A DNA stretch of 64,000 nucleotides from Meiothermus sp. (GTDB lineage Bacteria; Deinococcota; Deinococci; Deinococcales; Thermaceae): NCBI RefSeq assembly GCF_026004115.1, contig NZ_BPIM01000001.1, positions 2,026,501 through 2,090,500 on the forward strand, given 5' to 3'. How positions within the stretch are numbered: the first letter of the stretch is position 1; each line of letters opens with the position of its first letter. The notes below the pieces were generated by a model. The model saw only the letters and a list, made by a program, of their open reading frames with translations, ran no database searches and was not told the DNA's origin. This document shows positions 1,236-48,174 of the stretch, piece after piece. The position numbers and the translations under genes were made by a program.

Positions 1236-1276
1236 TAGTTCGCCGCCATCCGGCGCCGAACTAACCGAATCTGGTA
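1236..1276 (+). repeat. Family A repeat, right arm only
   Basis: This is the stem-loop arm (TAGTTCGCCGCC...GGCGCCGAACTA) and terminal GAATCTGGTA of the family A element found complete at 46317-46442. It begins right after the target duplication of the IS. Its end plus the following bases forms TATAAT (1275-1280), 23 bases before the start of the next gene. Confidence 0.7.
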
Positions 1277-4354: not shown

Positions 4355-4587
4355 TACCAGATTCGGTTAGTTCGGCGCCGGATGGCGGCGAACTAACAGG
4401 GCCGAAGTTATCCGCGTAGCGGAGGGCGATACCGCCCCTTGGAAGTTATCCGCGTAGCGGAGGGTGCAAGCCCCTTTGGAAGGGAGACGCTTTTTTCGCC
4501 GACCGTAAGGGAGGGGTGTGCTCTGGGATTCAAAAAGATAGCCTCTGGGGGTCTTTGGTTTGGATGATTATCTTTTTGAATCCGGTA
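4355..4587 (-). repeat. Family A MITE-like repeat with two 38-bp modules
   Basis: A full element in reverse orientation: TACCAGATTCGG end, GTTAGTTC palindromic arm, two copies of the GAAGTTATCCGCGTAGCGG module (4404-4481), then the ATTCAAAAAGATA / TATCTTTTTGAAT stem and the terminal CCGGTA. Flanks are TTA (left) and TAA (right), one mismatch from a perfect 3-bp duplication. Confidence 0.75.
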
Positions 4588-17222: not shown

Positions 17223-17274
17223 AGAACCGTCCTGACTAACAGGATAGCGACATTCGCCTGGGAAGACTGTCCTC

Positions 17275-17392
17275 GTGCACCGGTAATTTATTTTGCGGTA
17301 CGTTTTGAAGCACGTTGATTGCCCAAAATTGCAATGTGCGGCTTATTAAAGAGGAAAGTAGTGCATACCGAGCTATTGGTTACAAGGCCGCT
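17275..17392 (+). repeat. Family B repeat
   Basis: A ~120-bp copy with the core GTTTTGAAGCACGTTGATTG and ends GTGCACCGGTAA and GGTTACAAGGCCGCT. It occupies most of the gap between the acyl-CoA synthetase start and the DinB-like gene. Other copies are at 22952, 28005 and 41317. No coding potential. Confidence 0.7.
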
Positions 17393-17526
17393 CGGATGAG
17401 GATTTGTCGGATTTTTCCACAAACAAGCCGGACTGTGTAAGCGCCGGGAATTGCAGCTATGGGAGAACATCCAAACTGCTTTTCAGAACGCTGACGAACT
17501 CAGACCCAATGGCGTATGTTGGGCGT

Positions 17527-18740: not shown

Positions 18741-18864
18741 TACCGGATTCAAAAAGATAATCATTTAAACCAAAAAACCAGAGGCTATCTTTTTGAATCC
18801 TAGAGCACTCCTTTCAGTCGGGTTAGTTCGTCACTGTTCAGTGACGAACTAACCGAATCTGGTA
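18741..18864 (+). repeat. Family A MITE-like repeat, no internal module
   Basis: A complete 124-bp copy from TACCGGATTC to GAATCTGGTA, flanked by TCA on both sides (18738-18740 and 18865-18867). It has the AT-rich ATTCAAAAAGATA stem and the second GTTAGTTCGTCACTG/CAGTGACGAACTAAC hairpin, without the 38-bp module. Confidence 0.85.
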
Positions 18865-21127: not shown

Positions 21128-21241
21128 ATAAAAGGACAATTTAAGAAACCCCAGGGGTTGTCTTACTTGAACCCTACAACACTCCTTTCGGTTGGGTTGA
21201 TTTTAGTTTACGTTCGGTAACGAATCAACCGAATCGGGTAT
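21128..21241 (+). repeat. Degenerate family A repeat
   Basis: Traces of both hairpins are visible: an AAGGACAATTT...GTTGTCTTACTTGAACC stem and GGTTGATT...AATCAACCGAATCGGGTAT. The sequence has drifted, and the palindrome resembles the copy at 47982-48174. It lies in the 500-bp gap between ftsH and the TPR gene; nothing else was recognised there. Confidence 0.5.
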
Positions 21242-22888: not shown

Positions 22889-22951
22889 ATACCAGATTTA
22901 AAAAGACGATTCACAAAACCAAAAAACCTGTAGGTTTTCTTTTTGAATTCT
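22889..22951 (+). repeat. Family A repeat, left arm only
   Basis: A TACCAGATTTAAAAAG...CTTTTTGAATTC stem with the GTAGGTTTTC loop variant also seen at 47982. The right half is absent; a family B copy starts directly after it. Confidence 0.6.
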
Positions 22952-23058
22952 AGTGCACAGGCAGTTTGCTTTGTGGTCAGTTTTGAAGCACGTTGATTAC
23001 CCAAAAATTGCAATGTTCGGCTCATTGAGCGTGACTAAAATGTACACCGAGTTGCTGA
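22952..23058 (+). repeat. Family B repeat, truncated
   Basis: Carries AGTGCACAGGCAG and the GTTTTGAAGCACGTTGATTA core but stops before the usual GGTTACCAGACCACT end, where the next family A copy begins. Confidence 0.6.
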
Positions 23059-23103
23059 TAATACCAGATTCAAAAAGATAATCATCCAAACCAAAGATCC
23101 CCA

Positions 23104-23268
23104 CAGGGTCGGTGCGTAAACCCCTGCAAACCTTAGCTTAGTGCGCTCTAGATAGCCAGTGTTGCAAAATAATGCTCGTAGACAGGCGACCAGGCCGGGT
23201 ATTAGGCCCCCACCTAGCCTCCCCCGTTGGGGGAGGAAGGAGAGGTTTTACTTTATGCACCGGCCCTG
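23104..23268 (+). mobile_element. Family C MITE-like element, 165 bp, exact 10-bp target duplication
   Basis: Ends are CAGGGTCGGTGC and GCACCGGCCCTG (inverted, 11 of 12 match). The 10-base AAGATCCCCA flanks both sides (23094-23103 and 23269-23278). It inserted into a family A element and is therefore the younger of the two. No coding frame. Confidence 0.85.
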
Positions 23269-23348
23269 AAGATCCCCAGAGGCCATTTTTTTGAATCCTA
23301 GAGCACACCCCTCTTGAACGGTCGGCGAAGAAAGCGTCTGCCTTCCAA

Positions 23349-23535
23349 GGGGCGGTATCGCCCTCCGCTACGCGGATAACTTTCAAGGGGCGGTATCGCC
23401 CTCCGCTACGCGGATAACTTTCAAGGGGCGGTATCGCCCTCCGCTACGCGGATAACTTTCAAGGGGCGGTATCGCCCTCCGCTACGCGGATAACTTTCAA
23501 GGGGCGGTATCGCCCTCCGCTACGCGGATAACTTC
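23349..23535 (+). repeat. Five tandem copies of a 38-bp module
   Basis: The unit GGGGCGGTATCGCCCTCCGC... (38 bp, ending ATAACTTTCAA) starts at 23349, 23387, 23425, 23463 and 23501; the last unit lacks its tail. Units are essentially identical and contain two short dyads, GGCGGTATCGCC and CCGCTACGCGG. There are no spacers, so this is not a CRISPR array. Confidence 0.9.
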
Positions 23536-23661
23536 GGCCCTGTTAGTTCGCCGCCATCCGGCGCTGAACTAACCGAATCTGGTATGACCAGATCATAGAA
23601 CTGCTTTTTTCATGATTCCAACCGGATTCTAGGCTAAGGTCAGAACCATACAATAGAGCTC

Positions 23662-27944: not shown

Positions 27945-28004
27945 ACGTCCAAGTTTCCTTAACCGTTGGATCGATAGCCTAAATAGTCCAGAGAAGAATT
28001 GCCA

Positions 28005-28125
28005 AGTGGTCTGGTAACCAGGAAATCGGTATGCACTACGATCCCTCTAAATGAGCCACACACATCGCAATTATGAGCAATCAACGTGCTTCAAAACGCA
28101 CCGCAAAACAAGTTACCCGTGCACT
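28005..28125 (-). repeat. Family B repeat
   Basis: A full 121-bp copy in reverse orientation. Ends AGTGGTCTGGTAAC and (reverse complement) AGTGCACGGGTAAC match at 11 of 14 positions, so the family has short inverted ends. It contains the CAATCAACGTGCTTCAAAAC core. Confidence 0.7.
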
Positions 28126-28147
28126 AAGAACTATCCTGGTGAAACCC

Positions 28148-28311
28148 CAGGGTCGGTGCGTGAACCCTTGCAAACCTCAACCAGGAGCGCTTTAGACGCT
28201 TGGTGTTGCAATAAATGCTCGCAGGTAGGCGACCTGGCTGGGTGTTATGCTCCCACCTAACCTCCCTCGTTGGGGGAGGAAGGGAGAATTTTACTTTATA
28301 CACCAGCCCTG
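28148..28311 (+). mobile_element. Family C MITE-like element, 164 bp, exact 10-bp target duplication
   Basis: Begins CAGGGTCGGTGC and ends with CACCAGCCCTG. GGTGAAACCC flanks both sides (28138-28147 and 28312-28321). It shares most of its length with the copy at 23104-23268, including the CCTCC...GGGGGAGGAAGG hairpin and a TTTACTTTAT segment near the right end. Confidence 0.85.
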
Positions 28312-33072: not shown

Positions 33073-33339
33073 TACCAGATTCGGTTAGTTCGGCGCCGGA
33101 TGGCGTCGAACTAACAGGGCCGAAGTTATCCGCGTAGCGGAGGGCGTAAGCCCCTTGGAAGTTATCCGCGTAGCGGAGGGCGTAAGCCCCTTTGGAAGTT
33201 ATCCGCGTAGCGGAGGGCGTAAGCCCCTTGGAAGGGAGACGCTTTTTTCGCCGACCGTTCGGGAGGGGTGTGCTCTAGGATTCAAAAAGATAGCCTCTGG
33301 GGGTCTTTGGTTTGGATGATTATCTTTTTGAATCCGGTA
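33073..33339 (-). repeat. Family A MITE-like repeat with three modules, abutting sufU
   Basis: 267 bp from TACCAGATTC to GAATCCGGTA, reverse orientation, flanked by TTA on both sides (33070-33072 and 33340-33342). Three tandem 36- to 38-bp modules lie at 33122-33232. The right duplication is only two bases before the sufU ATG, so the element replaced or now supplies the sufU upstream region. Confidence 0.85.
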
Positions 33340-41257: not shown

Positions 41258-41316
41258 GGGCGTAGCCTATCGCTATACTGCCCGTCCGAGTGTGGCGCTG
41301 GTTGTAGAGCCCGGCT

Positions 41317-41435
41317 GGTGCACGGGTCACTTGTTTTGCGGCATGTTTTGAAGCACGTTGATTGCCCAAAATTGCGATTTGCGGCTCATTTGGAGGGATC
41401 GAAGTGTATATCGATTTCCTGGTTACCAGACCACT
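41317..41435 (+). repeat. Family B repeat
   Basis: A full copy from GTGCACGGGTCACTTG to GGTTACCAGACCACT with the GTTTTGAAGCACGTTGATTG core. It is followed directly by a family A copy. Confidence 0.7.
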
Positions 41436-41437
41436 AA

Positions 41438-41579
41438 TACCAGATTCGGTTAGTTCATCACTGTTTAGTGACGAACTAAGTTTAGTGACGAACTAACCCG
41501 ACTGAAAGGAGTGCTCTAGGATTCAAAAAGATAGCCTCTGGATTTTTTTGTTTGAATGACTATCTTTTTGAATCGGGTA
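41438..41579 (-). repeat. Family A MITE-like repeat without module, internal duplication
   Basis: 142 bp from TACCAGATTC to GAATCGGGTA, reverse orientation, flanked by TAA on both sides (41435-41437 and 41580-41582). A TTTAGTGACGAACTAA segment is duplicated inside. Its end plus the flank forms TATAAT. Confidence 0.85.
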
Positions 41580-45933: not shown

Positions 45934-46057
45934 CTCATCCTCCTACGACACTTTTGAACCCCAATGTCAGGGCTATGTGAGCCCGCTTGACCCCCAAATT
46001 TATACCCTTACTTTGCAGCGCCGACTACAGGTTTGTAGAGTGCATCTGACGTTTGCT

Positions 46058-46770
46058 GTGGACTTTCTTCTAGTACTGCTAGTTTATCTGACGGGTTCGA
46101 TTAATTTCCCTATCCTGGAGGGTCGCTTACGGGGTTGGGACATCCGCGAGCGTGACCTGGCCGGTACGTCGGGGGTTTTCGCCAACTCGTAAGAGTTTGG
46201 GGGCTGGGGGTGGGGGTGCTCGAGGTGGGCAAGGGGATGCTGGCAGCCTGGCTGGCGGTTTTTTCGGCTAGTTTTTGTGCCGTGTCCCTTTGTGCTCTGG
46301 CGGTGGTGGCCGGTCATACCGGATTCAAAAAGATAATCATCCAAACCAAAGACCCCGAGAGGCTATCTTTTTGAATCCTAGAGCACTCCCTTCGGTCGGG
46401 TTAGTTCGCCGCCATACGGCGCCGAACTAACCGAATCTGGTATCACATCTGGCCTGTATGCTTCGGCTTTCGCAGGGGTGGAGGCTTGGCGGTGGAGGTA
46501 TTGTTTTGGGTTCGCGAGCGAGACCGCATTCAAGGGAGCAGCTCCATCCTGTTTACGGCTATTCTGGTTTTGCTCTATCTGGCCGATGTGCTACGAATGG
46601 ATGTCGGGGCCCCCTATACCCTTTTTGCGCTGGGGGTCATGGCGTTGCGGGGTGCGCCGGTGCGTACTGGCTGTTGTGTGGTACCGCTCAGATAAAGAGG
46701 AGCCAAAGGCCAGAAAAGTGAGGTCAGGAGAGGCCAATGTAGTTCAAATACCACTGCACAAGGTCTGTAC
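46058..46770 (+). pseudogene. plsY: plsY-like glycerol-3-phosphate acyltransferase, disrupted
   Basis: From a GTG at 46058 the reading is VDFLLVLLVYLTGSINFPIL, then GWDIRERDLAGTSGVF, matching the PlsY N-terminus. One base is missing near 46181 (TTCGCC for TTCCGCC). After it the frame continues LVRVWGLGVGVLEVGKGMLAAW to ALAVVAGH, where a family A repeat (46317-46442, TCA duplication) is inserted. Past it the gene resumes HIWPVCFGFRRGGGLAVE and LFTAILVLLYLADVLRM, with at least one more shift before LAVVWYRSDKEEPKAR. PlsY makes lysophosphatidic acid from acyl phosphate, so another functional copy is expected elsewhere. Boundaries are approximate. Confidence 0.75.
46317..46442 (+). repeat. Family A MITE-like repeat inserted in plsY-like pseudogene
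   Basis: 126 bp, TACCGGATTC to GAATCTGGTA, flanked by TCA on both sides (46314-46316 and 46443-46445). It has both hairpins and no module. Removing it together with one TCA rejoins the GH-IWP codons of the interrupted gene, which confirms the element ends and the target duplication. Confidence 0.93.
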
Positions 46771-47981: not shown

Positions 47982-48174
47982 GCGGATTCAAAAAGACAGT
48001 TCACAAAACCAAAAAACTCATTAGGTTTTCTTTTTGAATTCTGGAGTACACCCCTGTGGGTTGGCGAAAAAAGCGCCTCCCTTTCCAAGTAGCGGTATCG
48101 CCCTCCGCTACGCGGATAACTTCGGTCGGGTTGATTCGTTACCGAACGGTAACGAATCAACCAATATCTGGTGT
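47982..48174 (+). repeat. Degenerate family A repeat with one module
   Basis: GGATTCAAAAAGACAG...CTTTTTGAATTC stem, one module (GCGGTATCGCCCTCCGCTACGCGGATAACTT, about 48090-48121), a GGTTGATTCGTTACC/GGTAACGAATCAACC palindrome and a decayed terminal TCTGGTGT. It fills the gap between pilD and the exported barrel-like gene. Confidence 0.65.

Follow-up and report, generated by a model that had tools for sequence, protein, structure and literature searches.

A modular, apparently recently active MITE family of Meiothermus without a detected parent element

A degenerate plsY-like gene of Meiothermus sp. is interrupted by a short repeat, which raises the question of whether this repeat is a mobile element or a fixed structure and, if mobile, what moves it. 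The initial annotation of the 64,000 bp stretch of DNA analysed here (the window; C1:2026501-2090500 of a 3.35 Mb host genome in three contigs) assigned the repeat to a MITE-like family, family A. We find that family A is very probably a non-autonomous DNA element (MITE) of Meiothermus that is mobilised in trans, targets TNA and has a modular interior. The case is built on its ends, its TNA duplications, exact empty sites in relatives and recent gains in the host lineage, and it presumes an enzyme. The copy in the plsY-like gene is laid out as follows.

46314-46316 and 46443-46445, flanks: TCA target duplication of the 126 bp copy
46317..46442, + strand: full family A element, 126 bp, without a 38 bp unit, exact TCA duplication
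46317..46326, + strand: left terminal inverted repeat TACCGGATTC, from end-motif searches
46324..46377, + strand: left hairpin with the A-rich stem ATTCAAAAAGATA/TATCTTTTTGAAT, from the fold
46398..46433, + strand: right hairpin GGTTAGTTCG(CCGCCATACGGCGC)CGAACTAACC, from the fold and the comparison of copies
46433..46442, + strand: right terminal inverted repeat GAATCTGGTA, from end-motif searches

This copy had been taken to fix the boundaries of the element, and it does so: in the relative G009 the plsY-like gene is unbroken and has a single TCA at the insertion site. The site is also uninterrupted in G010 and G015. In the close relative G003 an element of a different subfamily sits in the same orientation at the identical TCA, and gene conversion can explain the difference between the two genomes. 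The plsY-like gene itself (window 45950-46700) has lost its frame at other places besides the insertion; it is likewise interrupted and decaying in G003 and uninterrupted around the site in G009. The two hairpins proposed for each copy are borne out by the RNA fold of 46317-46442 (-46.2 kcal/mol, z = -5.5), which none of 200 shuffles equals and which is far better than that of shuffles on either strand. The apex of the right hairpin varies between copies, with compensatory changes, and may be subject to inversion.

With at most one mismatch allowed, the motif TACCRGATTC is found at 27 places in the window where 4.0 would be expected, and none of 100 shuffles reaches 27. A BLAST search with nine family copies as queries recovered ten copies, full, degenerate or partial, where at least nine with these ends had been counted before. 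The others are listed here.

1236..1276, + strand: right-end fragment (BLAST)
4355..4587, - strand: full copy, 233 bp, two tandem units, flanks TTA/TAA, duplication inexact
18741..18864, + strand: full copy, 124 bp, TCA/TCA duplication (BLAST and flanks)
21146..21240, + strand: degenerate right-half fragment (BLAST)
22890..22959, + strand: left-half fragment (BLAST)
23062..23584, + strand: long copy with about five 38 bp units, array at 23342-23534 (BLAST)
33073..33339, - strand: full copy, 267 bp, three 36-38 bp tandem units, TTA/TTA duplication, exact empty site in G003
41438..41579, - strand: full copy, 142 bp, TAA/TAA duplication, 17 bp internal duplication, right hairpin
47983..48172, + strand: degenerate copy with one 38 bp unit (BLAST)

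The four duplications originally named (TCA at 18741 and 46317, TTA at 33073, TAA at 41438) are all exact. A fixed length of 124 bp does not hold, as the copies at 4355, 23062 and 33073 contain arrays of 36-38 bp tandem units. The copy at 23062..23584 is interrupted by another repeat family at about 23101-23268. This third dispersed repeat, about 167 bp long and ending in GGGTCGGTGC / GCACCGGCCCTG, occupies window 23101-23268 and 28145-28311; besides the copy at 23062 it is inserted in one elsewhere in the genome (L114). The fourth such repeat (about 120 bp, ends near GTGCACNGG and TGGTTACCAGACCACT) lies at window 17272-17395, 22950-23057, 28002-28129 and 41315-41435; two of its copies directly adjoin family A copies (23061, 41438).

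Beyond the window, copies were collected as sequence stretches around pattern matches in the host genome (loci numbered L). The exact left end TACCRGATTCAAAA occurs 137 times and the right end CCGAATCTGGTA 150 times, and neither has a match in its reversed control. A pattern that requires both ends, with 90-120 bases between them, gives 43 matches, including two loci counted on both strands, against 0 for its reversed control. Together, about 140 or more elements are scattered through the chromosome, a high copy number that favours the MITE reading. The terminal inverted repeats are 10 bp (TACCRGATTC / GAATCYGGTA), most copies are 122-319 bp long, and none contains a transposase ORF of its own. 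Family A is present in 16 of the 18 Meiothermus genomes searched, several of which give at least 40 scored matches. Many copies within single genomes have equal scores, which suggests recent bursts. Examples from Calidithermus roseus and from one Allomeiothermus silvanus plasmid indicate that the family extends beyond a single genus. Among plasmids, the window matches those of Meiothermus taiwanensis and Allomeiothermus silvanus. The C. roseus example and one from Meiothermus hypogaeus came from a contig pattern scan whose inner gap was 45-75 bases, against about 92 needed, such that its matches serve as examples and not as a count of species.

An exact 3 bp duplication flanks 77 of 114 assembled copies, and all 77 are TNA. 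No position outside the fixed T and A carries more than about 0.3 bit of information, i.e., there is no strong preference. Of the host copies, 39 were looked up in G003 by their right flanks, and an empty site was called exact where both flanks align out to their last base and overlap by just the 3 bp TNA, or run on past it unbroken. Eleven copies have exact empty sites there, each with one TNA (L121, L144, L148, L159, window 33073, L124, L027, L013, L158, L152 and L150), and four more have near-exact sites with one to three bases changed (L035, L039, L014 and L031). The more distant G009 is also without the element at window 33073, L144 and L159, which marks these three as gains in the host lineage and not losses in G003. 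Judged from these comparisons, many family A copies can be seen to have inserted recently in the host lineage. Copy number, TNA-only duplications and exact empty sites in relatives thus all back the MITE reading. Identical locations in all related genomes, named at the outset as the mark of a fixed repeat, were not found, as empty sites exist.

The modular tandem array and the genus-wide spread are additions to the picture first drawn from the window. An element comprises about 125 bp, an optional module of about 32 bp, and n x 38 bp, with n = 0-5. Lengths are accordingly quantised: 52 unit-free copies are mostly 122-128 bp, followed by steps at about 157/164, 195, 233, 271 and 308-316 bp, which reflect the module plus n x 38. 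The units are 36-38 bp long and themselves palindromic, with the consensus CTTCCAAGGGGCGGTATCGCCCTCCGCTACGCGGATAA and a slightly shorter variant with GGGGCTTACGCCC. Where arrays are mixed, the variant unit (b) stands ahead of the standard unit (a): ba in 16 copies, baa in three, bba in three and bbba in one. The recurrence of this order at different loci suggests that arrays are carried along with the element. The L103 copy has two units in the host (G000) and one in G003, and all three share the private variant CTGCGCGG, which shows gain or loss of a unit in place. At L107, also shared by the host and G003, the two copies differ in the 32 bp module and by an inverted hairpin apex. Three family A copies, L131 (a 247 bp copy), L090 and L127, enclose a member of a second MITE-like family (CTAAGTACAACAACCTTAGG...GTGGGCGCACTTAG; about 129 bp); its sites are CTAG/CTAA with an apparent TA duplication, suggesting a putative IS630-type MITE.

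A consensus fold of 56 short copies consists of a left stem, a right stem and paired ends. Compensatory changes affect both terminal hairpins. Ten pairs have at least one such change and three of them have such changes in many copies: columns 105-114 (A-U in 28/56, G-C in 24/56), columns 19-53 (U-A in 37/56, C-G in 16/56) and columns 107-112 (C-G in 39/56, U-A in 14/56). These changes could stem from selection for hairpins, or equally from imperfect palindromes being repaired and inverted. All 47 copies with long flanks lie outside ORFs as called by a simple codon-usage gene caller, the plsY-like copy being scored so only because its gene is now degenerate; of 940 random points, 697 fall inside, such that 26% would be expected outside. 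A hint of orientation bias relative to neighbouring genes in 47 copies was gone at 110.

What would move such an element? A transposase acting in trans, most likely of the DDE type and specific for TNA, would recognise the 10 bp ends TACCRGATTC and cut the target with a 3 bp stagger at TNA, and insertion would leave the TNA duplicated. Between the two conserved terminal hairpins lies a filler made of the optional module of about 32 bp and 0-5 palindromic 38 bp units, the number of which shifts after insertion through tandem gain or loss, as seen at one orthologous site. Arrays also seem to travel with the element, as the b-then-a order suggests. The most likely role would be selfish spread into intergenic DNA, now and then inactivating genes like the plsY-like gene.

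The enzyme probably belonged to a dedicated parent with TACC-type ends that has been lost from the genome, has diverged at its ends, or resides in strains, plasmids or phages that lie outside the sampled set. The recent gains in this lineage imply that an enzyme was active not long ago, and reading of the left ends and solo right ends of the host found no parent with matching ends; the sole direct evidence for a dedicated parent is this absence from the sets searched. No TACC-ended parent with its own transposase was found within 1.7 kb of inner flank around 80 host copies without the simple short form, at solo right ends, or in a de novo scan of 879 kb, a search that covered all but about a dozen left ends and under half of the minus-strand right ends. 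The earlier observation that the window holds no matching transposase stands, and extends to the examined parts of the rest of the genome. MITE families with no known parent are an accepted category in the literature, and on the evidence of the genomes compared, family A reads as an orphan-parent modular MITE that was recently active.

Several candidate parents were considered and set aside. Matches to PF01609 in the host gave two parent-like loci, L046 and L049, in which the transposase between family A ends belongs to another IS inside the MITE. The former is IS5-type, with its own GAGGCTGTCGTAAAA ends and a TGA duplication; the element spans L046 1130-2033 (C1 about 2994027-2994930), is 904 bp long with ends GAGGCTGTCGTAAA, and its transposase frame is split over two ORFs. 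The latter is one of five copies (L048-L052) of an IS with a 380 aa DDE ORF, and shows an apparent ATGATT duplication. At L166 too, an IS is inserted in the MITE. The 411 bp copy L127, which has the expected family A ends and a TAA duplication, was examined as a parent shortened by deletion; its interior turned out to be a different dispersed sequence, found elsewhere without family A ends. On contig C3, a pair of ends spanning 986 bp falls partly within an unrelated lipoprotein-like ORF and is a chance pairing.

We think it unlikely that the resident IS5 transposases (IS1031/IS427-like, DUF4096) mobilise family A in trans by cutting the same TNA target. The link to IS5 drawn in the initial annotation holds for the target, as IS5-type elements resident in the genus duplicate TGA, TAA, TCA and TTA, and TNA is the target that the IS1031 group is stated to prefer (PMC12016507); 17 of the 18 genus genomes carry IS5-type elements. 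The link fails at the ends, which are GARRCTGTYGTAAA or similar and not TACCRGATTC, with no TACC-type ends among 30 IS5-type loci of the genus. Nor do the transposase family and the MITE track each other: G013 has 40 transposase-family matches against only 18 MITE matches, and G004 has four and none, respectively.

Two sites sit less easily with the MITE reading. At L141 the relative has an element of another subfamily in opposite orientation at the same TAA, and at L143 it has an oppositely oriented one that shares the left boundary, with 34 bp gone from the other side. Plain inheritance of a single insertion does not account for these differences in orientation. If insertion is confined to intergenic TNA sites, assumed to number about 20,000, then with about 200 elements and 30 tested sites a rough estimate gives about 0.3 chance coincidences, such that two are mildly surprising and not impossible. 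Hotspots, coincidence or replacement may lie behind them. It is doubtful that resident elements can be exchanged in place for another subfamily or orientation (L141, L143 and plsY) and that the apex inverts in situ (L107); if so, old sites would serve as landing sites, or the transposase would swap elements at occupied ends. At L092 (C1 about 308371-308549) a pair of family A elements is arranged tail to tail and separated by one TCA, which looks as though one element had targeted the duplication made by the other.

That family A is instead a fixed regulatory or structural repeat (e.g., a terminator or RNase processing site) with hairpins kept by selection, as its compensatory changes and intergenic copies might suggest, is very improbable. 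A fixed position is largely refuted by the 15 exact or near-exact empty sites in the close relative. Orientation to the neighbouring gene, split 51 to 59 among 110 copies with no bias, and the absence of an Rfam match at the gathering threshold also speak against such a repeat. Individual copies may have a residual effect on expression.

The MITE reading has consequences beyond this locus. Family A would be an abundant, recently mobile modular MITE in a thermophile genus, and with recent insertions, empty sites and natural changes in unit number, the acquisition and movement of minisatellites by MITEs becomes testable. The missing parent transposase is a concrete target. No MITE in Meiothermus was described in the open literature searched; most subscription journals fell outside that scope, and novelty is unproven.

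Among known systems, family A resembles MITEs in general in being short and non-coding, with terminal inverted repeats and a duplication relative to the empty site. It shares the 3 bp TNA duplication of IS5-derived MITEs, and lacks IS5-like ends. Correia, RUP and Nezha elements have ends related to other IS families, and to our knowledge have no 38 bp array. Like family A they are gene-free, form hairpins, reach high copy number, and have inverted repeats and a target duplication (see also PMC3049150). The IS1031/IS427 subgroup of IS5 (e.g., ISLrh) makes a 3 bp TNA duplication, as does family A, but its elements are autonomous, about 0.9 kb and transposase-coding with ends GAR..., whereas family A is gene-free with TACCRGATTC ends (PMC12016507). 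The BrickBuilt MITE of Porphyromonas gingivalis encloses a minisatellite, as family A does; both are intergenic, have a distinct leader and tail, form stem-loops and vary in unit number between strains or species (PMC4596501). BrickBuilt has 23 nt units, and 18-19 copies at mostly conserved loci with IS5-like ends (PMC4596501), whereas family A has well over 100 copies, is missing at many sites when close species are compared, and has ends for which no matching IS was found. Its units (36-38 bp) and ends (TACCRGATTC) depart from the 23 nt unit and GAGACCTTTGCA-type ends of BrickBuilt. BOX elements of Streptococcus pneumoniae (boxA-boxB(n)-boxC) have a variable tandem array between a left and a right module that are conserved, and number about 125 copies per genome, similar to family A (PMC3049150). 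Both are short and intergenic, with terminal inverted repeats, target duplications, folded modules and an array length that varies between strains or species at one locus. BOX differs in its host phylum and in having a proposed parent, ISSpn2, where none was found for family A, and family A is set apart by its TNA duplication, 38 bp unit and TACCRGATTC ends. Family A thus has the modular A-B(n)-C arrangement of BOX (n = 0-5) and is likened to it by layout alone; its apparent resemblance to BOX and BrickBuilt is one of architecture, and we claim membership in neither.
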